Below are positions 13,652 to 34,836 of a DNA stretch of 64,000 bases, piece by piece. The notes beneath the pieces are model-generated. The model did not search any database. It was not told the DNA's origin and saw only the letters and a program-made list of their open reading frames with translations. Position 1 is the first letter of the stretch; every line of letters starts with the position of its first letter. Origin of the DNA: Rhizobium halophilum (lineage in GTDB: Bacteria > Pseudomonadota > Alphaproteobacteria > Rhizobiales > Rhizobiaceae); NCBI RefSeq assembly GCF_021648825.1, contig NZ_JAKJHS010000003.1, positions 310,001 through 374,000 of the forward strand, read 5' to 3'. The position numbers were made by a program, and so were the translations under genes.

Positions 13652-14266
13652 TCATCCTAGGGCCTGCAGATGGCTCACTTCGAGGATTTTCGAATCCATC
13701 TCGACAGCACTTCGATGTTCTATCAGATCGAACTGCCATTCACCACGGGCTTTCTCCAGCTCCTTTTGATAATCCCGGCCTTTATGAAAGAACGCCGTCG
13801 TTCTCCCACTCGCCATCCAAGGGTAAGAGTAGCGAAACAACAGATCGACACTGGCTAGGGCGCGTGCTGAGACAAAGTCACACCTCTCGATATGCTTCGG
13901 CGCCTCTTCGATGCGAATGGCATGCACGCTTCCCTTCGCCATGGTTTCCATCAGCGCCACGCGGAGGAATGCCGCTTTCTTCTGATTGCTTTCGATAAGG
14001 TGAACCCAACCCCCTTCCACCTCGTTCATAAGGATGGCAGTTATGATCCCAGGAAACCCTCCACCTGAGCCTAAGTCAATCCAGGTTGCTGGGTGAGGTC
14101 GCAGCTGAAAAACTTGCGCGCTATCCGCAATATGGCGATCCCAAAGTTCGGCGACGGTCGAAGGTGCCACCAAATTGATACGCCTACACCACCGAAGGAA
14201 GAGCTCCGAAAAGTGCTCTAAACGCTCGTGCGTTTCACGTGAAACACGTTTTCCGTTCAGATGCAT
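13652..14266 (-). CDS. rsmG: 16S rRNA (guanine-527-N7) methyltransferase RsmG
   Basis: A 204-residue SAM-dependent methyltransferase (formerly GidB). The SAM motif is [13 protein letters not shown], preceded by HIADSAQVF. The start ATG overlaps the mnmG stop by one base. Residues 7-12 (RVSRET) are encoded by a ParB site, so the N-terminal peptide is partly shaped by a DNA signal. Confidence 0.97.
14231..14246. promoter_or_regulatory. parS site 1 (inside rsmG)
   Basis: CGTTTCACGTGAAACA matches the ParB consensus TGTTTCACGTGAAACA at 15 of 16 positions and has the perfectly symmetric core GTTTCACGTGAAAC. It lies in codons 7-12 of rsmG, about 1.4 kb upstream of parB. It is the only one of the five sites without a GATTC motif. 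Confidence 0.92.
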
Positions 14267-16140
14267 CAGGAGACTCTCTTGGCGCGAGATAGAGATTGCT
14301 TGCGGATTGTAGCTAGGAGAAGTGCAGAGGCTGCGGGCGTCATTCCCTCAATTCTCGCCGCGTGGGCAAGTGATACCGGTCTCTGCGCAACCAGTTTCTG
14401 CTTCAGTTCAGAGGAAAGACCCGCTAGCTGCTCATAATCGAAGTCAGCAGGGATTCTCAGGCTTTCATCGCGCCGAAGCGAGAGGACATCACTCTCCTGC
14501 CGTTCAAGATAAACGGCGTACCCCGCTTCAATCTCCAGCGCTTCTGCAACTCGCGACGGGATATCACCCAGTTCGGCCCAGATTGCTCTCAGAGCGGAGA
14601 GATCGATGGATTCGTATGACAGAAGTTCAAAAGCGCTGCGTCGTTTGCCATCGTAATTGACCTTCAGTCCTCTCTGGGCGGCCTCTGTCGGCGTCAGTGA
14701 TAGCTGCCGCAAAAGCGTTCGGTATTCAGTAAGGGAAGTCTCATAAGCAGAGAATGCCCGTGCTCGCTCGGATCCTACAATACCAGACGCGATGCCTTCC
14801 GGTGTAAGCCTTACGTCAGCATTGTCTGCCCGTAACGAAAGCCGGTACTCTGCACGTGACGTGAACATCCGGTAAGGTTCTGTGACGCCGCGCGAGGTCA
14901 GATCGTCGATCATCACTCCGATATAGGAACTTGTTCGGCTGAAGGTTTTAGGTGCCCCACCCCCTGCGCATAGGCCCGCGTTGAGCCCCGCCGCAAGACC
15001 TTGAGCAGCCGCTTCCTCGTATCCGGTGGTGCCGTTGATCTGCCCGGCCAGATAGAGCCCTCTGATGCTCCTAAGTTCTAGAGAATCCGTCAGTTCGCGG
15101 GGATCTACATGGTCATATTCTATTGCGTAGCCCGGCTGCAGTATCTCGACTTTCTCCAAGCCTGGGATCGTGCGAATGAACATCTCCTGCACCGCAGCGG
15201 GGAGGGAGGTCGAGATGCCGTTTGGATAAACGGTAGGGTCATCCAGCCCCTCCGGTTCGAGGAAAACCTGGTGCCCGTCTCTCTCGCCAAAGCGCATGAT
15301 CTTATCCTCGATCGAGGGGCAGTAGCGAGGACCCACCCCCTCAATCTGACCGGAGTACATGGCAGATAAGCCTATGTTCCGCCTAATAACGTCATGTGTT
15401 GCACCGGTGGTCCGCGTCACTCCGCATGCGATTTGCGGCGTATTGATCTTGTCGGTCAGGAATGAAAACGGGACGGGTACCTCATCTGCCTCCTGATATG
15501 TTACCGATGACCAGTCTACCGTATGTCCATTTAGACGTGCCGGTGTTCCTGTCTTCAGTCGCCCGAGCGTAACCTGGTGCCGTGCCAGCGTCTCCGAAAG
15601 CCCGGTTGAAGCTTCCTCGCCAACACGACCACCCGATATCCTTTCGGTACCGATATGAATTACGCCTCGCAGGAAGGTTCCGGTTGTCAGTACGACAGCG
15701 GCTGCGCGAAGATGACGACCGTCCGCCAGAACAACGCCCTGAATCCTCCCATTGTTGATTAGAAGATCGTGCGCGTTACCCTCGACCACAGTGAGATCGT
15801 CTTGTGCCAGGATGGCTTCTTGCATTGCCAGCCGGTACAGTTTCCGGTCGGCTTGGGTCCTCGGTCCTCGTACAGCAGGTCCTTTACTGCGGTTCAACAT
15901 GCGAAACTGGATACCGGCAGCATCGGCGACTCTTCCCATCAGGCCGTCCAGAGCGTCCACTTCCCGTACCAGATGGCCCTTCCCCAAGCCGCCGATGGCG
16001 GGGTTGCAGGACATAACCCCGATGGTATCGAACTTATGGGTCAAGAGAGCGGTCTTGGCGCTCATCCGTGCAGCGGCACTCGCCGCCTCGCAGCCAGCAT
16101 GCCCTCCACCGATGACGATAACGTCGTAAGCCTCTGTCAT
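14266..16140 (-). CDS. mnmG: tRNA uridine-5-carboxymethylaminomethyl synthase MnmG
   Basis: A 624-residue FAD-dependent enzyme (GidA) that, with MnmE, modifies the wobble uridine of several tRNAs. The dinucleotide-binding motif [21 protein letters not shown] starts at residue 6. The family block [20 protein letters not shown] and the conserved [11 protein letters not shown] are intact. It sits between mnmE (34 bp upstream, gap holding a parS) and rsmG (one-base overlap). Confidence 0.98.
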
Positions 16141-16160
16141 GATGACACTCCATGTTCACG

Positions 16161-16176
16161 TGTTTCACGTGAATCA
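16161..16176. promoter_or_regulatory. parS site 2 (mnmE/mnmG junction)
   Basis: TGTTTCACGTGAATCA differs from the consensus at one position. On the minus strand its core reads GATTCACGTGAAAC, so it contains a GATTC site. It overlaps the mnmE stop codon. The bases just before it (ATGTTCACGTG at 16153-16162) look like a second, damaged half of the same motif. Confidence 0.92.
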
Positions 16177-17481
16177 CTTACCTATGCAGAACTGGGAAAA
16201 AATAACGTCGAGCAGATCTTCGACATCGACCGCGCCGGTTATGCGGCCAAGTGAATTTGCTGCTACTCTCAAGTACTCAGCGCGCAACTCAAGTACGTTC
16301 GCCTTTAGCGCCTCTTCGATGAAATTGGAAGCCTGTTGGAGAAGATCCAACTGCCGCTTCCGCGTTGGTACCGCACTCCCTGCCCAAACCGCCTTCACGC
16401 GCTCAAGGATCAAACGCCGCAGATCCGAAATACCTAAATTAGAATTAACCGAGATACAAAGATCGAACTCGGTTGAGGCGCCTCGCAAATCGGACTTGCT
16501 ACCGACCCGGACGATCTCTCTTCCTTCAGCCGAGAAGGGTTGGTCTGTGGAAGATCCAATCTCCTGCAAAAACAGGACAAGATCTGCCTGCTCTATCAAC
16601 TTACGAGCTCGGCGAATGCCCTCTTGCTCAACCACGTCCATGCTCTCTCGAAGCCCGGCCGTATCGTAAAGCTTCACTAAGAAGCCTTCGAGATCGAGAT
16701 CCACACTGATTACATCACGCGTGGTGCCTGCCACCTCGGTAACAATGGCAACATCACGATCAGCAAGGGCGTTGAGCAAGCTGGATTTGCCAGCATTCGG
16801 CGGCCCTACGATCGCGACCTTGTAGCCGTCGCGAATGATCTCCCCGGCACCTGCCGCTGAGACGTGTTCTTTAAGAGCCCTGTGAAGCGTGACAATTTCA
16901 TCCACTATTTGTTCCGCGACGGAGCCCGGCACGTCGTCTTCGTCGGCAAAGTCCAGTTCAGCCTCAATCATTGCCCGCGCATGGGTGAGACGTCTTGCCC
17001 AGGCATTATAAATCTCGGACTGCCCACCAAAACTTTGCTCCACCGCAAGACGTCGTTGCATCTCCGTCTCGGCAGAAATCAGTTCCGCTAATCCTTCCAC
17101 CTCGACCAGGTCTAAACGCCCATGTTCAAATGACCGTCTAGAAAACTCCCCAGCCTCAGCCATGCGGAGCCCGTCCATGCTCTCCAGTTCGCCCAGCAAA
17201 GCACTTACGACAGCCCGGCTGCCGTGGGAGTGCAATTCGACGATATCCTCTCCAGTGAAGGAGTGTGGAGCTCGGAACAGAAGCACCAGAACTTCATCAA
17301 GCAGGAAGCCCGACTGACTAAAGACACGACGTAGACTTGCCACACGCGGCGCCGGCAAGGCCTTCAAGGTCAGTTTTTGTAATGCCTCACATGCTTTGGG
17401 CCCGCTGAGCCGTATCACTGCGACGCCAGCGGGTGGAGAGCCACTAGAAAGGGCGAAGATCGTATCTACTGGCGATCCCAT
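16174..17481 (-). CDS. mnmE: tRNA modification GTPase MnmE
   Basis: A 435-residue GTPase, partner of MnmG in tRNA wobble modification. It shows an N-terminal folate-binding domain (DTIFALSSGSPPAGVAVIRLSG), a G domain with AIVGPPNAGKSSLLNAL (P-loop), EVAGTTRD (switch) and DTAGLRES, and the absolutely conserved C-terminal FCIGK. I chose the ATG at 17481 (MGSPVDTIF); upstream in-frame codons add a peptide unlike the family. Its stop overlaps a parS site. Confidence 0.97.
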   Translation of the reverse strand: MGSPVDTIFALSSGSPPAGVAVIRLSGPKACEALQKLTLKALPAPRVASLRRVFSQSGFLLDEVLVLLFRAPHSFTGEDIVELHSHGSRAVVSALLGELESMDGLRMAEAGEFSRRSFEHGRLDLVEVEGLAELISAETEMQRRLAVEQSFGGQSEIYNAWARRLTHARAMIEAELDFADEDDVPGSVAEQIVDEIVTLHRALKEHVSAAGAGEIIRDGYKVAIVGPPNAGKSSLLNALADRDVAIVTEVAGTTRDVISVDLDLEGFLVKLYDTAGLRESMDVVEQEGIRRARKLIEQADLVLFLQEIGSSTDQPFSAEGREIVRVGSKSDLRGASTEFDLCISVNSNLGISDLRRLILERVKAVWAGSAVPTRKRQLDLLQQASNFIEEALKANVLELRAEYLRVAANSLGRITGAVDVEDLLDVIFSQFCIGK

Positions 17482-17506
17482 CGCGATACCATGAGCTGGG
17501 AGGAAC

Positions 17507-17533
17507 CAAAACGCCCGACACAAGGCCGGGCGT
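17507..17533 (-). terminator. Intrinsic terminator of rho
   Basis: On the minus strand ACGCCCG and CGGGCGT form a seven-base-pair stem followed by TTTTGG. It lies 33 bp after the rho stop and before mnmE. Confidence 0.75.
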
Positions 17534-17565
17534 CGAGATATGGGCTAGCTTCGGCTAAAGCAAGC

Positions 17566-18831
17566 CTAGGTATTCATAGAGTCGAAGAAGTCGCTGTTGC
17601 TCTTCGTCTGCTTCAACTTGTCGATGAGAAACTCGATAGCATCCGTGGTACCCATTGGCGCCAGAATCCGGCGAAGAACAAAGATCTTCTGCAGATCCTG
17701 GCGTGGAACCAGCAGATCTTCCTTTCGGGTGCCGGACTTGAGGATGTCCATGGACGGGAAGATGCGCTTGTCGGCCACCTTACGGTCGAGGACGATTTCG
17801 GAGTTGCCGGTTCCTTTGAACTCTTCGAAAATAACCTCATCCATGCGGCTACCGGTATCGATGAGAGCGGTCGCTATGATCGTCAGCGACCCACCTTCCT
17901 CGATGTTGCGTGCAGCACCGAAGAAGCGCTTTGGACGCTGCAAGGCGTTGGCGTCGACGCCACCGGTGAGAACCTTGCCGGATGAAGGAACGACGGTGTT
18001 GTAGGCGCGGCCAAGGCGAGTGATGGAATCGAGAAGGATCACCACGTCGCGCCCGTGTTCTACCAGACGCTTCGCCTTCTCTATCACCATCTCCGCGACC
18101 TGGACGTGACGCACTGCGGGCTCGTCGAAAGTCGACGACACCACTTCGCCGCGAACCGAGCGCTGCATGTCGGTTACTTCTTCCGGCCGCTCGTCAATAA
18201 GGAGAACGATAAGGTAACATTCCGGATGGTTCGCCGTAATGGAATGGGCGATATTCTGAAGCAGAACCGTCTTGCCGGTCCGTGGCGGCGCGACGATCAA
18301 CCCGCGCTGGCCTTTTCCCAGCGGTGCGATGAGGTCGATAACGCGCGCAGAGAGGTCTTTTGAGGTTGGAACTTCGAGTTCCATCTTGAAACGCTCATCG
18401 GGATAGAGCGGTGTCAGGTTGTCGAAGTGAACCTTGTGTCGGATCTTTTCCGGGTCGTCGAAATTGATCGTGTTGACCTTCAAGAGCGCGAAATAGCGTT
18501 CCCCTTCTTTGGGACCCCGGATCGGGCCCTCGACCGTATCGCCGGTCTTCAGCGAGAAGCGGCGAATCTGCGACGGCGAGATGTAGATGTCATCCGGCCC
18601 CGGGAGATAGTTCGCGTTGGCCGACCGGAGGAAGCCGAACCCGTCCTGAAGGACTTCCACAACGCCTTCGCCGATGATTTCCACATCCTGGCTGGCCAAA
18701 ACCTTGAGGATCGCAAACATCAGCTCCTGCTTACGCATGGTGCTCGCGTTTTCGACCTCGAGTGATTCGGCAAAGGTCAGCAGATCCGTCGGGGATTTGC
18801 CTTTGAGTTCTTGAAGCTTCATTTCAGCCAT
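17566..18831 (-). CDS. rho: Transcription termination factor Rho
   Basis: A 421-residue hexameric RNA helicase. Domains: N-terminal [18 protein letters not shown], the cold-shock RNA-binding fold with GFGFLRS (about residues 60-120), and the ATPase with [12 protein letters not shown] (P-loop) and the Q/R-loop area around [12 protein letters not shown] chose the ATG at 18831; the longer frame to 18963 lacks family similarity. The 130 bp or so between that ATG and hemJ could be an untranslated leader, which in many bacteria serves rho autoregulation; nothing in it proves that here. Confidence 0.98.
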
Positions 18832-19015
18832 GAAGGGGACCACGTTGAGCGTAGAAGGGGAAAAAGGCGTGCCGGTGGAATTCTCGACCACGGAGGACCT
18901 CCGGGGAGTATGAGTGATTACACGCATGCCACGAGATGAGATGGCGCGAAAATAGCGAGTCAACGCAAAGGCCGCAAGGGGTTCTGCACAAATCTTCGCC
19001 GAATTATCGGCGGCC

Positions 19016-19561
19016 TCAGAACGGCTTGACGATCACCAGGATGACGATGGCGATCATCAACAACGTAGGCGCCTCATTCATCATCCGCCAATAGCGTGCT
19101 GACTTGCGCGGTCCCTCCGCCGCAAAGCTCCGGACCGCTCGGCTGAAATGCACATGAACGACCGTCAGGACCACCACCAGAGTGATCTTGGCGTGTAGCC
19201 AGCCGCCCTGGAAGCCAAAGACATCCCAGGCGAGATACAGGCCTAGAACCCAGGTGATCATCATCGCGGGGTTCATGATGACCTTCAACAGCCGCTGCTC
19301 CATCACCTTGAAGGTTTCAGACTGCTCTGATCCTGGCGCGGCGTCGCTGTGGTAGATGAACAGCCGCGGCATATAGAGCAGTCCGGCCATCCAGGAGATG
19401 ACCGCTATGACGTGCAGTGCCGTCATCCACCGCGCAAAATCGGCCGGCTGAGCGAAGTAAAGGCCGAGAAGGATCGCGACGAAAACGGCGAGCGCCACAT
19501 AGGCCCGCTTGCCGGCGCGTCGTCCGGCCCTTTCTGACGTCTGACGTTCAGTCTCCACCAT
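19016..19561 (-). CDS. hemJ: HemJ-type protoporphyrinogen oxidase
   Basis: A 181-residue membrane protein of the UPF0093/HemJ family that oxidises protoporphyrinogen IX in heme synthesis. It has four to five hydrophobic segments, with conserved histidine in [24 protein letters not shown] and in [20 protein letters not shown]. The ATG shares one base with the hemE stop, so the two heme genes are coupled. The hemE-hemJ-rho order is the usual one in rhizobia. Confidence 0.95.
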
Positions 19562-20592
19562 CAGGTGATACCTCGCACGAGGCGCACCAGATCCGCCACG
19601 TGCTCAGGATCAGCCTCCGGGGTGATCCCATGACCCAGATTGAAGATCAGCGGACCGCTCCCCAGCACCTGCAGGATCCTATCCACGCCCTCTTCCATCG
19701 CACGTCCGCCAGCCACAACCCGCATCGGGTCGAGGTTACCCTGAACCGGACCATCCTTCTGCAACTCGGCCGCAAACGAGAGAGGAACAGTCCAATCAAG
19801 GCCTATAGCGTTGGCATCTGTCCCCTGCCGGTAGGTCTTCAGGTTCATTCCTGCGCCCTTGGCGAACGCGATGATTCGCGCGCCCGGTCGGGCACCCCTC
19901 ACTTTGCGAACCATCCGTGCCACCGGCCCGACGGCATACCGCTGAAATTCGGCTTCCCCGAGAACGCCTGCCCAGGAGTCGAAAATCTGGACGGCATCGG
20001 CACCAGCATCCAGCTGCGCGATCAGGTATTCCGCCGAAATGTCTGCGAGGATGTCCAAAAGCCGTTCAAACGCGATTGGGTTTCGATAGGAGAACAGCCG
20101 CGCAGGCGCCTGGTCAGACGTGCCATGACCCGCGATCATGTAGGTCGCCACTGTCCAGGGCGCTCCACAAAAGCCCAGCAAAGTTGTGTCTTTCGGCAGT
20201 TCCTGCCGCAGGCGTCGAACTGTCTCGATGACGGGGGAAAGATGATCCAGCACGCCATCGGGACGAAGGGTGGCCACCTCTGAAACATCCAGCGGATCCA
20301 TTTGCGGTCCTTCGCCCTGTACGAAGCGTACATTGCGTTTAAGGGCATCGGGAATGACGAGGATATCGGAGAAAAGAATTGCAGCATCGAATTTGTAGCG
20401 ACGAATGGGCTGCAGCGTCACTTCCACCGCATGCTCAGGAGAATAACACAAGTCAAGGAAGCTGCCGGCTCGCGAACGTGTCTCGCGGTACTCCGGAAGG
20501 TAACGTCCTGCCTGCCTCATCAGCCAGATTGGTGGAGGGGACAGGGTTTGCCCTTCAAGCACCGCTACGATCTTCCGGAATGGGCCGGTCAA
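19561..20592 (-). CDS. hemE: Uroporphyrinogen decarboxylase
   Basis: A 343-residue enzyme that turns uroporphyrinogen III into coproporphyrinogen III. The N-terminal signature [17 protein letters not shown] and the [13 protein letters not shown] block are intact, as is FDSWAGVLG. It is the first gene to the left of oriC and is transcribed away from it, ahead of hemJ. Confidence 0.98.
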
Positions 20593-20808
20593 GGTTTTCC
20601 TCCTAAATAGGAATCTATTTCAAAAGGCTTTCTATTTCTTAGAGTCGGTGAGTATCAAGGATTAAACAGTCTCCACAGAAGCCGCTACGATCCGGTACCT
20701 CGGTCAGCTTCGTGTACTGCGGAAGTCCGCTACAGACGTGTAATTGTGGAAGGATGATATTAGTCAACTAAAACAACGATATGTTGGTATTGTGTGGGGC
20801 GGCTTGTG

Positions 20809-20817
20809 TGTGGATAA
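20809..20817 (-). promoter_or_regulatory. DnaA box (perfect)
   Basis: Reads TTATCCACA on the minus strand, the strict DnaA consensus, inside the hemE-PPSR gap. Confidence 0.9.
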
Positions 20818-20855
20818 TGCGGGGATAAGTTTCTAAGGTTTCGATCGAAACAACG

Positions 20856-20864
20856 TTATCCACA
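20856..20864 (+). promoter_or_regulatory. DnaA box (perfect)
   Basis: Reads TTATCCACA on the plus strand, opposite in orientation to the perfect box 47 bp to its left. Confidence 0.9.
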
Positions 20865-20898
20865 ACCAACGCAAAGACGGCTCCCCGGTGGAAGGATT

Positions 20899-20907
20899 TG
20901 TGGACAA
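20899..20907 (-). promoter_or_regulatory. DnaA box (one mismatch)
   Basis: Reads TTGTCCACA on the minus strand, one change from the consensus and a variant that still binds DnaA in other species. Confidence 0.75.
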
Positions 20908-20966
20908 CCTGCCGGTTTTCCCATCGTGATAGATCGCAGCCCGCATCTGCCCTGAGTTCTCCCAAG

Positions 20967-20975
20967 TTATCAACA
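20967..20975 (+). promoter_or_regulatory. DnaA box (one mismatch)
   Basis: Reads TTATCAACA on the plus strand, one change from the consensus, only 17 bp before the PPSR start codon. Confidence 0.65.
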
Positions 20976-20991
20976 AAGGATAAAGAAGAGC

Positions 20992-21813
20992 GTGGAGAAC
21001 CGGAAAAACTTCTTTCACCTGCACATGATTTCTGACTCCACTGGCGAGACTCTCATTTCGGCGGGACGTGCCGTATCGGCCCAATTCCGCAGTGCAATGC
21101 CGGTCGAGCACGTGTATCCGCTGATCCGCAACCGCCGGCAGTTGCTAGCGGTGCTCGAGGCCATAGACCACCAGCCTGGAATCGTTCTCTACACGATCGT
21201 AGATCAAGAGCTCGCCGCGCTTGTAGATGTCCGATGCCGGGAAATCGGCACCCCGAGCGTCAACGTTCTTGAACCGGTGCTGACGACTTTCCAAAGCTAT
21301 TTGGGCTTCCCCTCTCGCCGACGTGTGGGCGCGCAGCACGATCTTGATGCCACCTACTTTGCTCGGATGGATGCACTCAACTTCACCATGGACCATGACG
21401 ATGGACAGTTGCCCGAGGATTATGATCGAGCCGATGTGGTACTGGTCGGTATCAGTCGTACCTCGAAGACACCGACCAGCATCTATCTTGCCAACCGTGG
21501 CGTCAAAACAGCAAATCTGCCGATCGTGCTGGGAAATGGCCTTCCTCCTAGTTTGCTCGAAGCGACACGCCCCCTGATCGTAGGTCTTGTTGCCACCACA
21601 GAACGGATCTCACAGGTGCGGGAGAACCGTGACCTAGGCGGTGCCCATGGCTTCGACCAGAACTATTATACGGATCGCGCGAGCATCCAGGAGGAACTGA
21701 AATATGCTCGCAGCCTGTGTGCTAGGCACGGGTGGCCCGTCATCGACGTCACACGTCGATCGATCGAGGAGACTGCAGCCGCCATCGTTGCGCTCCGTGA
21801 GAAGCTGCGTTAA
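20992..21813 (+). CDS. PPDK/PEPS regulatory kinase-phosphorylase (PPSR, DUF299)
   Basis: A 273-residue bifunctional serine/threonine kinase and phosphorylase that switches pyruvate phosphate dikinase or PEP synthase on and off. The family P-loop [18 protein letters not shown] is at about residues 147-164, and [13 protein letters not shown] marks the N-terminus. The start is a GTG at 20992; an ATG at 21028 would drop the conserved FFHLH. This is the gene that flanks oriC opposite hemE in many alphaproteobacteria and heads the PPSR-maf-aroE-coaE-dnaQ run. Confidence 0.95.
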
Positions 21814-21829
21814 TCCGCATTGACCCTCT

Positions 21830-22441
21830 ATGGAGACATTGGTCTTGAAGCCTTTGCTCGTGCTAGCATCGTCCAGTCCTTTCCGCCGCATGCTGATGGA
21901 TAATGCCGGACTAACCTTCGAAACGCGGGCGGCGTCCATTGACGAGCGTGCGATTGAAGCGGCGCTGGCAGATGATGCGACCCCTGATAATGTTGCCATG
22001 GAACTGGCGCGAGCGAAGGCGCTGGATGTCAGTCGCGATCTGCAGGGAGCGCTGGTGCTGGGGTCTGATCAAACGATGTCTCTCGGAGAGCGCGTTTATC
22101 ACAAGCCCAAGGATCTGGATGAGGCTAAACGGCACCTCCTTTCCTTGTCCGAAAATACGCACCGCCTGAACAGCGCGATTGCTCTTGCTCAAGACGATCG
22201 GATTATCTGGGAGCATGTCTCACACGCGGAGCTGACGGTGAGACCGCTCTCCGAGAGTTTCGTTGAGCGATATATCCAGCGCTGTGGCGACAAGCTGTTA
22301 GGGAGTGTGGGCGCCTATCAACTGGAAGGCGAGGGGATCCAGCTCTTTTCGGAAATCCGCGGCGACTACTTCACGATACTGGGCCTTCCGCTTTTGCCGC
22401 TCCTTGGAAAGCTTAGGGAGCTCGGGGCGATTGATGGCTGA
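21830..22441 (+). CDS. maf: Maf-family nucleotide pyrophosphatase
   Basis: A 203-residue housecleaning enzyme that hydrolyses non-canonical or modified nucleoside triphosphates. It begins with the family signature [18 protein letters not shown] and has LVLGSDQTM and the acidic [23 protein letters not shown]. It starts 16 bp after PPSR and its stop overlaps the aroE start region and a parS site. Confidence 0.93.
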
Positions 22442-23294
22442 TTCACGTGAAACAAATATGGTAAAAGCCTTCGTAACAGGTTGGCCCGTCAAGCACTCAC
22501 GCTCGCCCTTGATCCATGGACACTGGCTGAAGCAGTTTGGTATCGCCGGTGAGTACCGGCGCGAGCCGGTGACCGTTGACGGATTCCCTGCCTTCGTAGC
22601 CAGCCTAAAATCAGGTTCGTCCTCCTATGTAGGCGGCAATGTCACCATTCCGCACAAGGAATTGGCCTTCCACCTCGCGGATGAACCGGATGCGATCGCG
22701 AGCGATCTCGGCGCTGCCAACACGTTGTGGCTGCAGAAGGGTCGCCTGCATGCGACCAACACCGACGTTTATGGGTTCGCCGCCAATCTGGATGAGCAGC
22801 ATGCAGGCTGGGACACAGCAGACCGCGCGGTTGTTCTTGGAGCGGGCGGCGCCAGCCGCGCTGTTATCCGCGCCCTGCGCGACCGCGGCATTCATGAAAT
22901 CAACGTCGTCAACCGGACACCGGCCCGCGCCCAGGAGCTCGCCGATCGTTTCGGGCGGGCCGTTCATGCTCATCCGATAGAAGCTCTTGCGGAAGTCGTG
23001 TCGGGAGCGGGTCTCTTCGTTAATACGACATCTCTGGGTATGGACGGAGGCGAGGTGCCGGAAATCGATTTCTCACGGATGAACTCCGCGGCGCTGGTGA
23101 CCGACATCGTGTATGTCCCACTGAAGACGCCGATTCTTGCGCAGGCGGAGAACCAGGGATTGGCGATTGTGGATGGCCTCGGAATGCTCCTGCACCAGGC
23201 GGTTCCGGGATTTGAAAAATGGTTTGGCAGACGCCCGCTTGTGGATGAGGAACTGAGGAACCTCGTCATTGCCGACATGGATGCGGAGCAATGA
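22434..23294 (+). CDS. aroE: Shikimate dehydrogenase
   Basis: A 286-residue NADP-dependent enzyme of chorismate synthesis. Motifs: [12 protein letters not shown] (shikimate site), NVTIPHKE with the catalytic lysine, NTDVYGF, and [16 protein letters not shown] (nucleotide site). I start it at the ATG at 22434, which gives [13 protein letters not shown] and overlaps the maf stop; an ATG at 22458 is possible. As in rsmG, the peptide SRET here is encoded by a parS sequence. Confidence 0.96.
22439..22454. promoter_or_regulatory. parS site 3 (maf/aroE junction)
   Basis: TGATTCACGTGAAACA differs from the ParB consensus at one position and contains GATTC. It spans the maf stop codon and the first codons of aroE, 1.5 kb to the right of oriC. 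Confidence 0.92.
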
Positions 23295-24640: not shown

Positions 24641-25120
24641 TCAGCTATTCAGCGTCTGAACCTGCGCCTTCGCCTTTTCCTGCGCCATGCGCTGCGTGAA
24701 CATCTGAGCAAAATCGATTGGATCGATCATCAGCGGCGGGAAGCCACCATTGCGAGTTACGTCGGCAACGATCTGGCGGGCGAACGGGAAAAGTAGCCGA
24801 GGGCATTCGATAAACAGAACCGGCAGCATATGCTCCTGAGGGAAACCCGTGATGCGGAAGACGCCGCCATAGACGAGTTCCGCGGCGAATACGATCTTTT
24901 CGCCTTCCTTGGCTTCAACATTAAGCGAGAGCACGACGTCAAAATCCGTCTCGGAAAGCGGATTAGCATTCACGTTAACATTGATGTTGATGGCGGGAGC
25001 CTTGTCGCGGGCCTGCAGCGAACGGGGTGCGCCCGGGTTTTCGAAGGAAAGATCCTTCGTGTACTGCGCAAGGATGTTGAGCGATGGGCTCGTTGCACCT
25101 TGTGTGTTCTCGTCGGCCAT
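24641..25120 (-). CDS. secB: SecB export chaperone
   Basis: A 159-residue homotetrameric chaperone that keeps precursors unfolded for SecA. It has the family start [18 protein letters not shown], the YGGVFRI strand and the [26 protein letters not shown] block. It is monocistronic and ends at a terminator inside the convergent dnaQ. Length is normal. Confidence 0.97.
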
Positions 25121-25203
25121 GCGGTGTCCTCGAAAGAGAGTTTGTTAGGTCGGCGTCTAACATTTCACCTTTGACCTTACAACCCTCGGCGCCAGCATGA
25201 CGT

Positions 25204-25713: not shown

Positions 25714-25821
25714 GATGGGTACCTGTGGCGGAAGGTCTCTCGCCTTCGCTATTTGAATGATGTCACGTTGCGGACTATATGAGAATGTACATCAACAAAT
25801 TAAACGGCATTGCGGGCAAAG

Positions 25822-26517
25822 ATGGGATCCAACGACTTCATTACTCTGTTCTTTCTCGTCGCGGCGGTCCTGATCTTCCTGCAATTGCGCAGTGTCTTGG
25901 GCCGTCGGACTGGAAACGAGAAGCAGCCCTTCGACCCCTATAGCGCTCGTGAAGCCGCCAAGGCTCCTGTCTCGGATGATGGGAAGGTGGTGACCCTGCC
26001 GCGCCGGGAGATGACGGATGAGGAGAGGTTTTCCGAAATCGACGGTGTGGCAAAGCCTGGCAGCCAGCTTAATGACGCTTTGCGCCAATTGCTCAAGCTT
26101 GACCCGACCTTTAAGCCAAAGGAATTCCTGAACGGGGCCCGGATGGCCTACGAGATGATCGTCATGGCCTTTGCTGATGGCGATCGAAAGACCCTGAAGA
26201 ACCTTCTTTCCAAGGAAGTTTATGAAGGTTTCGATGCTGCCATCTCAGAGCGCGAAGCGCGGGGCGAGGTCGTGAAGTCGACCTTCGTGGGTATCGACAA
26301 GGCGGACATCACCCACGCCAACGTGAACGGCACCGAAGAACAGGTGACCGTGCGGATTGTCAGCCAGTTGATCTCTGCCACCTTCGACAAGGAAGGCAGC
26401 TTGGTGGAGGGTGACCAGGAGAATGTAGCCGATGTCACCGACATCTGGACCTTTGCTCGCGATGCACGGTCACGGGATCCGAACTGGAAGCTTATAGCTA
26501 CAGAATCTGAGCAATGA
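25822..26517 (+). CDS. Tim44-like domain protein
   Basis: A 231-residue protein with one N-terminal membrane anchor (FITLFFLVAAVLIFLQL, residues 5-21) and a C-terminal Tim44/MRPL45-like domain (FLNGARMAYEMIVMAFADGD through VTDIWTFARDARSRDPNWKLIA). In mitochondria Tim44 tethers the import motor; the bacterial role is not settled. I use the ATG at 25822; a TTG at 25810 is in frame. Its TGA overlaps the mltA ATG by four bases, so the two are made together. Confidence 0.85.
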   Translation: MGSNDFITLFFLVAAVLIFLQLRSVLGRRTGNEKQPFDPYSAREAAKAPVSDDGKVVTLPRREMTDEERFSEIDGVAKPGSQLNDALRQLLKLDPTFKPKEFLNGARMAYEMIVMAFADGDRKTLKNLLSKEVYEGFDAAISEREARGEVVKSTFVGIDKADITHANVNGTEEQVTVRIVSQLISATFDKEGSLVEGDQENVADVTDIWTFARDARSRDPNWKLIATESEQ

Positions 26518-27635
26518 CGGGGGATCGGTCGGGATTCTCGCTCAGCCAGGTGGATTTCCAGCATCTACCAGGTTGGGCAAGTGATGATCCCTCCGATCTC
26601 GTTGCGGGCATGCGCACCTGCCTGCGACACGTCCGCACCGCCAAACCTTACCGTTCTGGAGCCTTGGGCTTAGCCACTGACGATATCCTCGCGGTTTACG
26701 AGTCGGTCGAGAGCCGGAACTTTGTCGACGCCCAGGAAGCCAGGCAGTTCTTCGAGGCGCATTTTCTGCCGTTTCAGATCTGCAAGAATGATGGAAGTCG
26801 GGGTTTCGTCACAGGCTTCTATGAGCCAGAGGTCGACGTCGACGCTCGCAAGTCAGAGGCGTTTCCTTACCCATTCTATCGCCGTCCAAAAGATCTCGTC
26901 GATCTTGACGAGGCGAACAGGCCGTCCACGATGGAGCCGTCTTACGCATTTGGCCGCCTCCGCGACGGCGAGATCGGGCCCTATCCGGACAGAAGGGAAA
27001 TTGATCACGGCTACCTTGAGGGGCGCGGACTTGAGATCGCCTGGGCACGATCAAAAGTTGATGTCTTCTTCGCGCATGTCCAGGGTGCCGCGCGTCTGCG
27101 TTATCCGGATGGGTCTCTGAAGCGCATCACCTATGCCGCCAAGGCTGGCCATCCGTTTTCCGCCGTTGGCAAGTTGCTCATCGATCGTGGAGAGATCGAT
27201 CCCGCGACCGTATCGATGCAATCGATTCGCACTTGGCTAGCGGAGAATCCGGCTAAGGTTGACGAGGTGCTGTGGCACAACCGGTCCTACATCTTCTTTC
27301 GCGAGGCGGAGGTGGCGGAGATGGAGCTTGGACCAATAGCCGCAGCCAAGGTCCCGCTGCTGGCGGGACGCTCCCTGGCCGTGGATCGGCTGATCCACAC
27401 CTTCGGCTTCCCTTTCTTTGTTCATGCGCCGACTTTGACGCATCTGGACGACGGGCGTCCGTTTGCACGCACTCTTCTTGCGCTCGACACCGGCAGCGCC
27501 ATCGTCGGTCCGGCGCGGGGCGACATCTTCACCGGCTCCGGAGCGCGCGCCGGAGATCAGGCGGGCACCATCCGGCATGATGCAGATTTCTACATTCTGA
27601 TCCCCAAAGCCGTTTCTGCGAGGTTCGGCAGATGA
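26514..27635 (+). CDS. mltA: MltA-type lytic murein transglycosylase
   Basis: A 373-residue enzyme that cleaves peptidoglycan with formation of 1,6-anhydro ends. The MltA domain (about residues 85-270) contains GFVTGFYEPEVD and AHVQGAARLRYPDG; the following 3D domain ends in LDTGSAIVGPARGDIFTGSGA and HDADFYILIP, with aspartates matching the catalytic one. I see no obvious signal peptide or lipobox at the N-terminus, so export would need a different start or route. It overlaps its neighbours on both sides by four bases. Confidence 0.92.
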   Translation: MTGDRSGFSLSQVDFQHLPGWASDDPSDLVAGMRTCLRHVRTAKPYRSGALGLATDDILAVYESVESRNFVDAQEARQFFEAHFLPFQICKNDGSRGFVTGFYEPEVDVDARKSEAFPYPFYRRPKDLVDLDEANRPSTMEPSYAFGRLRDGEIGPYPDRREIDHGYLEGRGLEIAWARSKVDVFFAHVQGAARLRYPDGSLKRITYAAKAGHPFSAVGKLLIDRGEIDPATVSMQSIRTWLAENPAKVDEVLWHNRSYIFFREAEVAEMELGPIAAAKVPLLAGRSLAVDRLIHTFGFPFFVHAPTLTHLDDGRPFARTLLALDTGSAIVGPARGDIFTGSGARAGDQAGTIRHDADFYILIPKAVSARFGR

Positions 27636-28198
27636 CGGGCGGGCGTAAACTGAGCTCGGAGGAGCGCATCCTCTGGGGAAAGGTTGCAAAGTCCACCCGG
27701 GCACTCCCGGGGCGGGCGGAGGAAGCGCGTGAGCTGGAAGAGGAGATTGCCGCGATGATGGCGGCGGAAGATGCCGCACTGCAGACGCCGGCATCGTCCG
27801 AGAGAAAAGGCGCATTGGAAGCGCCGGCGCAGGAGAAGCCTCGACGTCCGGCGGGCAGCCACCAGCCTTTGGAGAAGCCCGTCCACCGCAAGCTTGCGAA
27901 AGGCCGGCTGGCAATCGAGGCGCGGCTGGACCTGCACGGCCTGTTTCAGGCGGAGGCGCACGATCTTCTTCTCGATTTTCTCTTTCGTGCCCACGACCGA
28001 GGCCTCCGACACGTTCTGGTCATTACCGGGAAGGGCAGCTCGATGGGCAGTGAAGGGGCGCTTCGCCGCGCCGTGCCGCTCTGGTTCTCCAAGCCCGAGT
28101 TCCGCTTCCTGATCTCTTCCTATGAGTGGGCGGCCCGCCATCACGGCGGCGAGGGCGCTCTCTATGTTCGGCTCAGCCGGCCCCGGAGGCACGGATGA
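27632..28198 (+). CDS. Smr-domain protein
   Basis: A 188-residue protein. The first 95 residues are charged and low in complexity (AREL EEEIAAMM; PAQEKPRRPAGS); the rest is a Smr domain with LDLHGLFQAEA and HVLVITGKGSS...GALRRAVPLW. Smr domains bind or nick nucleic acid and in stand-alone form include ribosome-collision endonucleases. Four-base overlaps with mltA upstream and the XRE gene downstream place it in a coupled operon. Confidence 0.88.
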   Translation: MTGGRKLSSEERILWGKVAKSTRALPGRAEEARELEEEIAAMMAAEDAALQTPASSERKGALEAPAQEKPRRPAGSHQPLEKPVHRKLAKGRLAIEARLDLHGLFQAEAHDLLLDFLFRAHDRGLRHVLVITGKGSSMGSEGALRRAVPLWFSKPEFRFLISSYEWAARHHGGEGALYVRLSRPRRHG

Positions 28199-28560
28199 CG
28201 CCGTTCGGTCAGGCGCTTCGCGAGCTGCGCGATCGCAAAGGCGTGACGCAGCGTGATCTCGCCCATGCAATCGGTGTCTCACCCGCCTATCTTTCTGCCC
28301 TCGAGCATGGCAAGCGGGGAAAGCCAAGCTTCGACCTGCTGCAGCGGATTGCAGGCTATTTCAACATCATCTGGGACGAGGCGGATGAGCTTTTCATGAC
28401 CGCAGAGGCCTCGCATCCACGTGTGGTCCTCGACACGTCGGGCTTGCCCGCAGCCTATACCGCGCTGGCCAACCGGATGGCGCGCCAGATTCGCTCTTTG
28501 TCGCCCGATATGGTACAAACAATAGATGAACTGCTCGATAAAGCGCGTCATCAAGCCTGA
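28195..28560 (+). CDS. XRE-family helix-turn-helix regulator
   Basis: A 121-residue protein with an N-terminal Cro/CI-type DNA-binding domain (FGQALRELRDRKGVTQRDLAHAIGVSPAYLSALEHGKRG, residues 4-42) and a helical C-terminal half of unknown partner. Its start overlaps the smr stop by four bases and it is the last gene of the Tim44-mltA-smr-xre group, 145 bp before gyrB. The regulated gene is not evident. Confidence 0.87.
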   Translation: MTPFGQALRELRDRKGVTQRDLAHAIGVSPAYLSALEHGKRGKPSFDLLQRIAGYFNIIWDEADELFMTAEASHPRVVLDTSGLPAAYTALANRMARQIRSLSPDMVQTIDELLDKARHQA

Positions 28561-28603
28561 GTGGCGGAAAACCCCCTGTTTTCGGGCACCGCAACGAGGC
28601 TAG

Positions 28604-31141
<2,538 letters not shown>

Positions 31142-31146
31142 CCGAC

Positions 31147-31162
31147 GGTTTCACGCGAATCT
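31147..31162. promoter_or_regulatory. Degenerate parS-like sequence after gyrB
   Basis: GGTTTCACGCGAATCT matches the 16-base consensus at 12 positions. Read on the minus strand its core is GATTCGCGTGAAAC, only one base from the core shared by four better sites here. It lies 10 bp left of a good site and faces the other way. It may be a decayed duplicate. Confidence 0.35.
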
Positions 31163-31172
31163 CCGCTAACGA

Positions 31173-31188
31173 TGATTCACGTGAAACG
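31173..31188. promoter_or_regulatory. parS site 4 (downstream of gyrB)
   Basis: TGATTCACGTGAAACG, two mismatches from consensus and core GATTCACGTGAAAC. It sits in the 47-bp gap between the gyrB stop and the end of the convergent nitroreductase gene. Confidence 0.85.
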
Positions 31189-31788
31189 TTATTCTTCGCC
31201 GGAGAACCAGCCCTCGAATGCCACGCCGCCGAGCGGCTTGCGCTGGCTCTGGACCTCGCGCGCCCGAAGATCTTCCGGGAGCGTCTCTTTCGGTGCCATC
31301 CTGCCGATTGCGCACGCCGCCTCCACACGAAACCCCTCCGGTATCTGCAGCACCTCCACAGCCTTCTCCCGATCCATCCCCTCCATCCCGTGCGCATGAT
31401 AGCCAAGCTTCATCGCTTGGGCTGCGATGGAGAACCAGGCGGAGCCGGTATCGAAGGAATGGGTGTAGGCCGGCCTCTTCTCTCCCTCCTTGGAAAGCCT
31501 GTAGGTCCGCGAAACGAAGATGATCAAGGCCGCAGCGTTGCTCGCCCACCTCTGGTTTCCCGGAGAGAGGATATCGAGCAGAACCGGCCAGCTTTCGGTG
31601 CCGCGCAAGGCATAGATGAATCGCCACGGCTGGTTGTTGCCGGAGGAGGGGGCCCAGTGTCCCGCGTCCAGGATGGTCAGCAGCGTCTCCTTATGCATCG
31701 CTTCGCCGGTGAAAGCGCGCGGCGACCATCTGTCGAGAAAAAAGGCATCGATCGGATGCTCGGAATGACGGTTGTTGCTGTCGGTCAT
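31189..31788 (-). CDS. Nitroreductase-family flavoprotein
   Basis: A 199-residue FMN-dependent oxidoreductase. Family motifs: DRWSPRAFTGEAM, LDAGHWAPSSGNNQPWRFI (FMN contacts) and GSAWFSIAAQAMKLGYHAHGM. The start at 31788 is preceded by AGCAGGAACC; the longer frame to 32016 has no homologous look. The substrate is not predictable from sequence. It is convergent with gyrB. Confidence 0.9.
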   Translation of the reverse strand: MTDSNNRHSEHPIDAFFLDRWSPRAFTGEAMHKETLLTILDAGHWAPSSGNNQPWRFIYALRGTESWPVLLDILSPGNQRWASNAAALIIFVSRTYRLSKEGEKRPAYTHSFDTGSAWFSIAAQAMKLGYHAHGMEGMDREKAVEVLQIPEGFRVEAACAIGRMAPKETLPEDLRAREVQSQRKPLGGVAFEGWFSGEE

Positions 31789-31929
31789 TAGGTTCCTGCT
31801 CCACGAATTGAAGGTCCGGCGTAAGATAGGATGCACGGGCGAACGTCGCCATGCCCGCTGTACCGAAGGGGATGACAAGGCACCTGCTATCCGGCATAAG
31901 GCGGTTGTCAGACAAGTGGAGGCATAGTC

Positions 31930-32772
31930 GTGAAACTCATGCGTGTTGGCCAGCCGGGCCAGGAAAAGCCGGCAATTCTCGATGCGGACGGTAAGGTGAG
32001 GGACCTTTCCCAGCATGTCGCGGACATCGGCGGTGCGGCCATCTCGCCGGAAGGCCTAGCTAAGATCGCGGCTCTTGATCCGAAGAGCCTGCCTGAAATT
32101 TCCGTGGACCGTATCGGCGCCTGCGTCGCAGGCACGGGCAAGTTCATCTGCATCGGCCTCAACTTCTCCGACCACGCCGCCGAAACCGGCGCGACCGTGC
32201 CGCCAGAGCCCGTGATCTTCATGAAAGCGACGTCCGCCATCTGCGGGCCCAACGACGATGTCATCATCCCGCGCGGTTCCGAGAAGACCGACTGGGAGGT
32301 CGAACTCGGCGTGGTGATTGGCAAGACCGCCAAGTACGTCTCCGAAGCCGAAGCGATGGATTACGTCGCTGGCTACTGCGTGTCCCACGACGTCTCCGAG
32401 CGCGGCTTCCAGACGGAACGCGCCGGTCAGTGGACCAAGGGCAAATCCTGCGACACCTTTGGTCCGATCGGCCCCTGGCTCGTGACCAAGGATGAAGTCG
32501 CGGACCCGCAGAACCTCGGCATGTGGCTGAAGGTCAACGGAGAAACCATGCAGGACGGTTCGTCCAAGACCATGGTCTATGGCGTTGCCTTCGTCGTCTC
32601 CTATCTCAGCCAGTTCATGTCGCTGCAGCCGGGCGACGTCATCTCCACCGGCACCCCGCCGGGCGTCGGCATGGGCATGAAGCCGCCGCGTTATCTCAAG
32701 GCGGGCGACGTGGTCGAACTCGGCATCGAGGGCCTGGGAGAGCAGCGCCAGACCTTCGTGGCAGACCGTTAA
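31930..32772 (+). CDS. Fumarylacetoacetate hydrolase (FAH) family protein
   Basis: A 280-residue metal-dependent hydrolase or decarboxylase. The metal site is built by EVELGVVIG, with CIGLNFSDHA upstream and DVISTGTPPGVGMGMKPPRYL as the family C-terminal block. It resembles the ureidoglycolate lyase / 2,4-diketo-3-deoxyfuconate hydrolase subgroup, but the substrate cannot be fixed. The start is a GTG at 31930; an ATG at 31939 would remove three residues. It lies 201 bp before phaZ on the same strand. Confidence 0.9.
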   Translation: MKLMRVGQPGQEKPAILDADGKVRDLSQHVADIGGAAISPEGLAKIAALDPKSLPEISVDRIGACVAGTGKFICIGLNFSDHAAETGATVPPEPVIFMKATSAICGPNDDVIIPRGSEKTDWEVELGVVIGKTAKYVSEAEAMDYVAGYCVSHDVSERGFQTERAGQWTKGKSCDTFGPIGPWLVTKDEVADPQNLGMWLKVNGETMQDGSSKTMVYGVAFVVSYLSQFMSLQPGDVISTGTPPGVGMGMKPPRYLKAGDVVELGIEGLGEQRQTFVADR

Positions 32773-32973
32773 CCAGCCGACGAGGACGGAACCTTAATCC
32801 GTCTCATGCGATTCTGGATGCCAGGCCTGCGCCTGGCATCTCTCTTTCTGGATCGGTCCCGCTTGATGTTGCACTGCATTCCAAACATGGTAGCCTCTCC
32901 CCTTGCTCCTGAACCCTCACAATCCGGCTCCTTGACCGGAGTTGCGTCGGGTCTGAAGAAAGGCGGCACCTCC

Positions 32974-34260
32974 ATGATCTATCAGCTTTACGAGATGAAC
33001 CACGCAGCGATTGCTCCCTTTCGAGCTGCGTCGGACGCGATGAAGCTCGTTCATACCAACCCACTCAACCCGTGGTCCTATACGCCAATGGCTCGTACCA
33101 TAGCTGCGAGTCTCGAACTTTTCGAAAGGATGACACGTCGGTACGCAAAGCCTGAGTTCGGGCTTTCCACCACGACCGTCGACGGTCAGGTCGTGAAGGT
33201 AACCGAAGATGTCGTCTGGTCGAAGCCCTTCTGCGACCTGATCCACTTCCGCCGGCAACTCCCGGCGGGGCGGGTGCCAGACCAAAAGTTGCTTCTGGTC
33301 GCGCCAATGTCCGGCCACTATGCGACGTTGCTGCGTGGAACGGTCGAGACACTCCTGCCGAACGCGGAGATCTACATCACCGACTGGATCGATGCCCGCA
33401 TGGTCCCCGTGACCGAAGGACGCTTCGACCTTGATGACTATATCGATTACCTGATCGAGATGATCCACCACATCGGCCCGAATACCCATGTGGTGGGTGT
33501 GTGTCAGCCTTCAGTGCCGGTGCTCGCTGCCGTCGCACTAATGGAAGCTTCCGAAGATCCGCTGACGCCTGCCTCCATGGTGCTGATGGGCGGACCGATC
33601 GACACGCGCGAAAATCCGACGGCGGTCAACAACCTGGCGCAGGAAAAGCCACTGGACTGGTTTCGCGACAACGTTATCATGAATGTGCCATGGCCGCATC
33701 CTGGCGTGATGCGTCCCGTTTATCCTGGCTTCCTACAGCTCTCCGGCTTCATGTCGATGAACCTCGACCGCCACATCACGGCGCACAAGGAGTTCTTCGA
33801 GCACCTCGTCAAGAATGACGGCGACTCGGCCGAGCGCCACCGCGACTTCTATGATGAATACCTCGCGGTGATGGATCTGACGGAGGAATTCTATCTCCAG
33901 ACCGTGGACACCGTCTTCATCAAGCACGCGCTGCCGAAGGGTGAGATGATGCATCGTGGCATCCCTGTCGACACCAAGAAGATCCGCAAGACCGCGCTTC
34001 TCACTGTCGAAGGCGAAAATGACGATATTTCCGGTCTCGGCCAGACCCGTGCCGCCCACACGATCTCGCCCAGCATCCCCGATGACAAGCGCATGCACTA
34101 CATGCAGCCCGATGTCGGCCATTACGGCGTCTTCAACGGTTCTCGCTTCCGCAAGGAGATTGCTCCCCGGATACTGGCCTTCGCCACCAAGCATGGCGGT
34201 TCGGCAGGCGAGGGCAGGGGGCCGGTCAAGCGGGTGATCAAGGGCGGCAAGGGCACCTGA
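32974..34260 (+). CDS. phaZ: Intracellular polyhydroxyalkanoate depolymerase
   Basis: A 428-residue enzyme that releases hydroxybutyrate from PHB granules. The nucleophile region is VVGVCQPSVPVLAAV, where cysteine replaces the usual lipase serine, as known for intracellular PhaZ. The N-terminus MIYQLYEMNHAAIAPFR and LVAPMSGHYATLLRGTVE are typical, and the conserved VEGENDDISGLGQ and MQPDVGHYGVFNG provide the acid and histidine. I chose the ATG at 32974; the frame opens earlier but without similarity. PHB storage is common in rhizobia. Confidence 0.95.
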   Translation: MIYQLYEMNHAAIAPFRAASDAMKLVHTNPLNPWSYTPMARTIAASLELFERMTRRYAKPEFGLSTTTVDGQVVKVTEDVVWSKPFCDLIHFRRQLPAGRVPDQKLLLVAPMSGHYATLLRGTVETLLPNAEIYITDWIDARMVPVTEGRFDLDDYIDYLIEMIHHIGPNTHVVGVCQPSVPVLAAVALMEASEDPLTPASMVLMGGPIDTRENPTAVNNLAQEKPLDWFRDNVIMNVPWPHPGVMRPVYPGFLQLSGFMSMNLDRHITAHKEFFEHLVKNDGDSAERHRDFYDEYLAVMDLTEEFYLQTVDTVFIKHALPKGEMMHRGIPVDTKKIRKTALLTVEGENDDISGLGQTRAAHTISPSIPDDKRMHYMQPDVGHYGVFNGSRFRKEIAPRILAFATKHGGSAGEGRGPVKRVIKGGKGT

Positions 34261-34397
34261 AGATTAGATTTCCCTAAACCTATTCAGGTGCTTCCCCGAA
34301 ATCGCCGACGCGCTTCTTGAACCGAAACTTCAGTCATCCCAAATCGATTTATGACGGGCTGGCATCTGGCTGCCCGGAATAACGAAGGGTGTCACCG

Positions 34398-34820
34398 ATG
34401 AACCAGTCTGCAATGATTCGTCCGGATTGGACTCCGGCCACCATCGCCCTGATGGTGCTCGGTTTCGTGGTCTTCTGGCCGCTCGGCCTTGCCATGCTTG
34501 CCTATATCCTTTTTGGAGAAAGGCTGCAGGGCTTCAAGCGCGATGCAAACCGCAAGGCTGACGGTATGTTTGCCGGATGCCGCAGGGCGAAGTCGCGTTA
34601 CAGCACGCATTTCTCGACCGGCAACGTCGCTTTTGACGACTGGCGCAAGGCGGAACTTGACCGGATCGAGGAAGAGCGCCGCAAGCTCGATGAAATGCGC
34701 GAAGAGTTCGACAGCTACGTGCGCGAACTGCGCCGTGCCAAGGACCAGGAAGAGTTTGATCGCTTCATGCGCGAACGCAAGAATGGGTCCGCAGGTCAGG
34801 GCGGCGTCGTCGACCTCTGA
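34398..34820 (+). CDS. DUF2852 membrane protein
   Basis: A 140-residue protein with one hydrophobic hairpin (IALMVLGFVVFWPLGLAMLAYILFG, about residues 14-38) followed by a charged, probably coiled-coil region (DRIEEERRKLDEMREEFDSYVREL). It matches the DUF2852 pattern of Rhizobiales; no function is known to me. A GTG at 34389 is in frame, but AAGGGTGTCACCG fits better before the ATG at 34398. A parS site begins directly after its stop, then an intrinsic terminator. Confidence 0.85.
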   Translation: MNQSAMIRPDWTPATIALMVLGFVVFWPLGLAMLAYILFGERLQGFKRDANRKADGMFAGCRRAKSRYSTHFSTGNVAFDDWRKAELDRIEEERRKLDEMREEFDSYVRELRRAKDQEEFDRFMRERKNGSAGQGGVVDL

Positions 34821-34836
34821 GGATTCACGTGAAACA
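34821..34836. promoter_or_regulatory. parS site 5 (downstream of the DUF2852 gene)
   Basis: GGATTCACGTGAAACA, two mismatches from consensus, core GATTCACGTGAAAC. It starts at the base after the DUF2852 stop codon and is the most distant site from parB, 14 kb right of oriC. Confidence 0.85.

Follow-up and report, generated by a model that had tools for sequence, protein, structure and literature searches.

Hemimethylated sites in the origin region signal the replication state in the Dam/SeqA system of Gammaproteobacteria, and the timing of segregation to replication in Alphaproteobacteria is, to our knowledge, an open question. Here, we analysed the parS sites, the recognition sites of the partition protein ParB, in a stretch of 64,000 nucleotides from Rhizobium halophilum (NCBI RefSeq assembly GCF_021648825.1, contig NZ_JAKJHS010000003.1, positions 310,001 to 374,000; hereafter the window) and compared them with those of other Rhizobiaceae. 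The centromere in a large part of this family has two classes of site, palindromes at mnmG and one-sided sites, both there and elsewhere, in which one half reads GAYTC and thus contains GANTC, the motif of the methyltransferase CcrM; this division is solid. Compared with Dam/SeqA, which uses a different enzyme and a different reader, ParB itself would be the reader here.

The described chromosomal ParABS systems share with the window the 14-bp core of parS, the presence of several sites near oriC, the position of parAB beside rsmG/mnmG and the canonical ParB residues 173 and 201. They differ in that the peripheral sites of the window have one GAYTC half, whereas the degeneracy of the Bacillus consensus TGTTNCACGTGAAACA lies at position 4, as far as Table 1 of PMC7022226 presents it. 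The CcrM/GANTC system of Caulobacter, Agrobacterium and Sinorhizobium has its counterpart here in the motif, a protein of CcrM architecture and a GANTC-rich oriC bin, but its roles, in the parts of the literature consulted, are at promoters, with GcrA and at repABC/ori2, whereas here GANTC lies inside chromosomal parS. A further parallel is found in repABC replicons, where centromere and GANTC lie close together and are thought to tie replicon maintenance to the cell cycle (excerpts of PMC9040568, PMC11514494 and PMC6090056). There, GANTCs occur near the RepB parS of plasmids and chromids, while here they are part of the half-site that ParB recognises on the main chromosome. The accessible text of open-licence papers contained no description of GANTC inside a chromosomal parS, and a text search for the parS 14-mers matched no paper.

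Palindromic and one-sided parS sites

We searched for parS as matches to the 14-bp palindrome GTTTCACGTGAAAC, graded by the number of mismatches. Five predicted parS sites of the window lie within one mismatch, one palindrome and four of the form GATTCACGTGAAAC (Table 1). At up to three mismatches the window holds nine matches compared to 1.9 expected, a number that none of 100 shuffles reached. The five sites are all located beside parAB and no further than about 14 kb from the oriC gap, and no further site within one mismatch was found in the genome (4.35 Mb, 41 contigs). An earlier note on this DNA had claimed that four of five parS sites carry GATTC, that a single change from the palindrome creates GANTC and that a decayed copy at 31147 keeps a GANTC. 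The mismatch scan bore out the first claim (sites 16162, 22440, 31174 and 34822) and the last (GAATC at 31148), and the single change was confirmed, with relatives retaining GANTC at the same and at other loci; the coordinates given for these real sites were all one base too low. With the CcrM motif, the four sites and the decayed copy are predicted methylation targets.

For the comparison within the family, we sampled 101 genomes and compared up to 40 kb around oriC in the 77 relatives that have the anchor gene. The resulting 78 regions (2.88 Mb) comprise our own, one of a congener (G047) and one each from 76 other genera. The parS sites of the 23 genomes without a match to the anchor gene are outside the counts for these regions, and G066, G077 and G089 are represented by short contigs without a site. 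Genome-wide, parS within one mismatch was detected in 100 of the 101 genomes and GAYTCACGTGAAAC in 83 of them. In the 78 regions we counted 135 palindromes, together with 165 sites that have one mismatch and 36 that have two, whereas the reversed consensus gave one match with one mismatch and six with two in the same 2.88 Mb, compared to 300 (at most one mismatch) and 36 (two) for parS. Since this control is almost empty, nearly all sites within one mismatch are real parS.

GATTC accounted for 151 of the 165 one-mismatch sites, and 26 of the 36 two-mismatch sites had GANTC in one half, 21 of them as GACTC. In total, 177 of the 201 imperfect sites were GANTC sites, and these were present in 70 of the 78 origin regions, 80 of them inside the mnmG-mnmE gap and 97 elsewhere. 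All 135 palindromes flanked mnmG, at the rsmG/mnmG or the mnmG-mnmE position. The earlier note had proposed to look in relatives for the symmetric core at the loci of the one-sided sites; in the 78 regions no palindromic parS was found away from mnmG, be it at maf, gyrB, rho-hemJ, hemE, hisH or mltA. A site with GANTC in both halves was likewise not seen in these regions. The GANTC sites fell into 30 locus bins, which split some loci (the mnmE stop from the array, and two sister genera at mnmE-rho) and which we merged by hand into about 25 locus classes. On a protein tree of 75 taxa, GANTC parS showed repeated gains and losses. Every one of the named Rhizobiaceae loci L012-L025 and L039 had a GANTC parS, and L026 (Nitratireductor, a contig of 12.7 kb) contained no parS at all. 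Large numbers of parS-like forward sites within one mismatch were present in G318, G178 and G301 of the class-wide sample and in G088 of the family (138, 37, 19 and 20, respectively), with none in the reversed control.

Arrays and inverted pairs of GANTC sites

In the mnmG-mnmE gap, as many as four parS follow one another in tandem arrays with a spacing of mostly about 26-56 bp, in which the palindrome lies nearest to mnmG and is followed by one to three GANTC copies toward mnmE. Examples are L024 (3017-3133), L025 (3003-3119), G073 and G090, and the flanks of these copies show approximately random identity. At gyrB, two inverted copies of parS are spaced by about 25-43 bp and turn their GANTC halves toward each other. 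The partner is intact in L013, L015, L016, L018-L021 and L023 (near 20150-20475), and the left copy has decayed, with GANTC retained, in our genome (31148-31187), L017 and L039. The decayed copy of the window is thus, judged by its sequence and position, a remnant of the gyrB pair. The maf site of the window has a counterpart in 19 of the 78 origin regions. At about -16 kb from oriC, some genera (G047, G100, G071, G084) have GTTTCACGGGAAAC or GCTTCACGTGAAAC and others (G057, G054, G011, G075) have GATTCACGTGAAAC at a similar distance, in what may be one and the same locus.

GANTC motifs were also counted around the palindromes themselves. Around the rsmG-side copy (72 sites), 34 lay within 50 bp on either side, and the 50-bp bins beyond held 15-25 each, so that any excess is slight at most. 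For the other palindromic copies, the nearest bin contained 97 GANTCs, which by inspection were largely neighbouring GANTC parS.

Conservation of the GANTC half

The positions of the half-site are numbered G1, A2, N3, T4 and C5, and halves without A2 are called T2 halves. In the groups of the mnmG-mnmE array and of the stop codons, the conservation of G1, A2, T4 and C5 is fixed by the selection of sites. This does not hold for rho-hemJ and gyrB, where A2 invariance is not given by construction because no palindromic site was found there. At rho-hemJ (seven genera) and at gyrB (16 rows, with one genome represented twice) A2 was invariant, with flanks that were only 42% and 36% identical, respectively.

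Further evidence comes from the additional changes in the one-sided sites. A mismatch beyond A2 was at position 3, the free position of GANTC, in 21 of 28 A2 sites, compared to 1 of 14 single-mismatch sites without A2 (Fisher 3.9e-5, shared descent ignored). The change of position 4 to C, which breaks GANTC, occurred twice in GA halves and seven times in T2 halves, and C at position 3 occurred 21 times in GA halves and once in T2 halves; tested against each other, the two changes gave a Fisher value of 1.0e-4, again with shared descent ignored. The resulting GACTC was found in 15 genera and required 12 parsimony changes. One GANTC half in peripheral parS thus looks selected, as far as conservation in the sequences goes. 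That selection keeps GANTC as such, rather than the A for the sake of ParB, appears somewhat better supported but is not proven.

CcrM and the possible use of the GANTC sites

The genome of the window encodes a protein of 376 aa with an N6_N4_Mtase domain (PF01555) and a RAMA domain (PF18755), the architecture of CcrM, from which we infer its specificity for GANTC. A family control for the CcrM-type protein matched only Caulobacter among 14 named genomes. Proteins of the RAMA type were present in all 101 family genomes, so that this sample contains no natural loss of CcrM. In A. tumefaciens, the GANTCs near ori1 are hemimethylated for a detectable time, according to the part of PMC11514494 consulted.

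On these grounds, we propose that the peripheral sites combine two functions. The canonical half would preserve ParB binding, and the other half would serve as a GAYTC target of CcrM. CcrM would methylate the peripheral sites late in the cell cycle, and the passage of the replication fork would leave them hemimethylated. A methyl group near the outer contact of ParB would then alter nucleation, which we infer to be the most likely use of such sites, so that the loading of ParB (and condensin) at the periphery would track the replication state while the palindromes at the mnmG core would load constitutively. Methylation could aid ParB or hinder it, and the sequence is compatible with either direction. 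We estimate the probability that the peripheral GAYTC sites of the two-class centromere are tuned by CcrM methylation at about 40%. The stricter version, in which replication and late-S remethylation switch nucleation on the peripheral sites and leave the mnmG palindromes ungated, seems possible, and we would lean against it. If such gating existed, segregation would read the replication state straight from centromere DNA. With a CcrM target within a ParB half at about 25 locus classes, the link from methylation to centromere loading is directly testable. The forms GATTCACGTGAAAC, GTTTCACGTGAAAC, GACTCACGTGAAAC and GCTTCACGTGAAAC can be set side by side for a comparison of ParB binding, and G081, described below, is a natural contrast.

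Evidence against methylation and alternative explanations

Several observations weigh against a role of methylation. First, the mnmG-mnmE gap and its immediate surroundings account for 20 of the 21 GACTC sites, and the test at position 3 therefore rests largely on one locus. This tempers the case for methylation tuning and favours the first alternative below. Second, the conservation rows of maf, rho-hemJ, gyrB, hemE and hisH show T throughout at position 3, and A or G at this position of GA halves (GARTC) was found in none of the 101 genomes. The motif is for this reason GAYTC and not a free GANTC. T2 halves, too, showed only C in place of T at position 3, with 14 GTCTC sites in 9 of the 101 genomes, which suggests that ParB may itself demand a pyrimidine there. 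Third, 24 imperfect sites are without GANTC, 14 of them with one mismatch. G013 has a two-mismatch site without GANTC at rho-hemJ, and G081 has GTTCCACGTGAAAC, a GTTCC form, at maf, where 19 others have GATTCACGTGAAAC. No GAYTC parS was found in G081, G065, G034, G076 and G093, in origin region or genome, and, among the matches listed, at least three genomes without the anchor gene (G041, G056 and G079) contain three or four palindromes, two of them together with GTTCC forms. Because of anchor-less genomes such as these, the GAYTC rule applies to a large part of the family but not to all of it.

Fourth, a class-wide sample of 241 genomes, ours included, contained RAMA proteins in 167 and GATTC parS in 8. 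Outside the family, RAMA proteins were thus present in 166 of 240 genomes, yet GATTC parS in only seven, so that CcrM alone does not bring about the GATTC form. Six of these seven GATTC genomes encode a RAMA protein, compared to 166 of 240 overall, a comparison of no informative value. Finally, depletion or overexpression of CcrM in A. tumefaciens changed ori2 and left the duplication and partitioning of ori1 essentially unchanged, in the part of PMC11514494 consulted, for a strain that may or may not carry the GANTC form of parS.

A preference for A at position 2 outside the family was considered as well and is little in evidence: we counted 10 GATTC sites (7 of 240 genomes), and GCTTC and GGTTC together reached a similar number, with 12 sites in 10 of 240. 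Pairs of GATTC parS occur in Alsobacter (L031, 18374 and 18416) and in two unclassified alphaproteobacterial metagenome-assembled genomes (L046, 1504 and 1660; L049, 2196 and 2261), and judged by their sequences these are perhaps independent gains outside Rhizobiaceae.

The alternative that survives best is that, for the ParB of this clade, GAYTC is a half-site of a different kind that still works well, the peripheral sites being deliberately asymmetric or weaker, the GANTC incidental and methylation without effect. We hold this to be a serious contender, slightly less probable than methylation tuning and likewise short of an even chance. It agrees with the near confinement of the GATTC form to one family in a class with widespread RAMA proteins and with the finding of T and C alone at position 3, in GA and T2 halves alike. 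In addition, in the portion of Jalal 2020 (PMC7383237) consulted, R173 contacts the base at position 1 and only a backbone contact (Noc) is named for position 2, which makes tolerance at this position plausible. The ParB of the window keeps R173 and G201 (Caulobacter numbering), and Caulobacter ParB 6t1f is the solved structure that matches it best. In 69 of 72 regions, however, the specificity columns 173, 179, 184 and 201 read R,T/S,K,G, and the same R,T,K,G is present in L032, L038 and L041, which yielded palindromic or GTTCC sites and no others. Moreover, a mere weakening of the sites leaves unexplained why one letter was chosen at about 25 locus classes and why the change at position 3 goes along with A2. 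A switch in ParB specificity was rejected as a candidate: the four known columns show no clade-specific change, and neither column 179 nor column 184 tells genomes that have the form from those that lack it. Even if methylation turned out to be irrelevant, one-sided parS kept over dozens of genera would be a puzzle for ParB specificity, and they also bear on the roles of core and peripheral parS.

Alternatively, ParB could block CcrM, so that the GANTCs in parS stay unmethylated, either as a mark or simply by occlusion as with MucR/CtrA elsewhere. We regard such shielding as unlikely, since we know of no reader for an unmethylated parS GANTC mark.

A by-product of coding, in which the A is present because TGATTC provides a TGA stop or because the frame requires it, with ParB no more than tolerant of it, is less probable still. 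For this account, we assigned the sites to location classes by tblastn with 26 genes of our genome, whereby the 177 GANTC sites fell into 67 over a TGA stop, 39 inside genes and 71 'intergenic/other', a class that may include a few coding sites. The stops belong to long frames, 47 of them to mnmE, 19 to maf and one to a frame at about -16 kb, and the sites 16162 and 22440 of the window are both of this kind. At hisH, a palindrome would encode Phe and the site calls for Ile; the 23 genomes that lack the site likewise have Ile (13) or else Leu (10), so that the reading frame may contribute to this site. On the other side, the 71 'intergenic/other' sites are GANTC all the same, no palindrome was seen away from mnmG, and the base preceding the 177 sites is not always T (T 115, C 33, G 18, A 11). 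At hemE and hemJ, the site dictates the residue, because the residue varies where the site is absent. All nine genera with the hemE site have Asn. In the 66 that lack it, the residue is His (44), Arg (10), Lys (4), Thr (2), Asn (1) or one of five others that occur once each, and Lys, which would restore the palindrome, thus occurs naturally in four genera without the site. The mltA locus is mixed, with Asp at the aligned column in three of five. We rejected stop codons as a general explanation, as they cover only 67 of 177 sites, and the intergenic loci refute coding as a full explanation; at mnmE, maf and hisH, it still has a share. In the nine genera with the hemE site (e.g. the region of G051, at -761), the antisense GANTC parS imposes Phe-His-Val-Asn on a variable stretch.

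Least of all do we expect the orientation of the GANTC half to be a mark of fork direction, because GANTC is itself palindromic and fork passage hemimethylates it in either orientation. The outward-facing rule of the earlier note holds for the four intact sites of our genome and for 148 of the 177 family sites (61 of 64 on the right arm and 87 of 113 on the left), but fails in relatives at hemE, hemJ and rho-hemJ. Three of 64 right-arm and 26 of 113 left-arm sites face inward, the latter mostly as whole loci (hemE 9, rho-hemJ 7, hemJ 3, about -16 kb 4 and three singles), and gyrB is an inverted pair in several relatives. An orientation common to all loci in relatives is contradicted by the inward-facing loci hemE, hemJ and rho-hemJ. 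Grouped by hand, 18 of 25 loci point outward, a tally to which we give no weight. The choice of the half that can change is restricted by the stop codon or the frame at mnmE, maf and hisH. The rule seen in the four sites of the window is best read as a probable outcome of the loci used and their reading frames.

Origin region and neighbouring genes

The gene order of the window is parB-parA-rsmG-mnmG-mnmE-rho-hemJ-hemE-oriC-PPRP-maf-aroE...gyrB, and the coordinates of the features discussed are collected in Table 1. The location of oriC is supported by the 500-bp bin with the hemE/PPRP gap, which over the 78 regions has 5.97 DnaA boxes per kb compared to a mean of 0.20 and 8.83 GANTCs per kb compared to 2.03; the minimum of the cumulative GC skew falls just past this bin. 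A location elsewhere, considered because the signs of the left arm flip near rho, was ruled out by the peak of DnaA boxes and GANTCs in this bin. The gap of our genome itself contains two GANTCs and three words resembling DnaA boxes.

Table 1 parS sites, oriC and partition genes of the window.
Feature	Position	Strand	Description
parS1	14232..14245	.	Perfect palindrome GTTTCACGTGAAAC; inside 5' end of rsmG
parS2	16162..16175	-	GATTC half on minus strand; overlaps TGA stop of mnmE
parS3	22440..22453	+	GATTC half first; overlaps TGA stop of maf
Decayed partner of parS4	31148..31161	-	GTTTCACGCGAATC; two mismatches, inverted, keeps GAATC (GANTC)
parS4	31174..31187	+	GATTC half first; intergenic, downstream of gyrB
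parS5	34822..34835	+	GATTC half first; intergenic, directly after DUF2852 gene (open reading frame 34389-34820)
oriC gap	20593..20991	.	Between hemE and the gene for PPRP (phosphoenolpyruvate synthase regulator)
parB	11945..12823	-	ParB_N, HTH_ParB, ParB_C; presumed reader of the parS sites
parA	12844..13632	-	AAA_31/CbiA by Pfam
rsmG	13652-14266	-	GidB/RsmG by Pfam

MnmE, HemE, PPRP, Maf and GyrB were assigned by NCBIfam. The nearest named relatives of the PPRP protein are found in Pseudorhizobium and Neorhizobium, with 82-83% identity.

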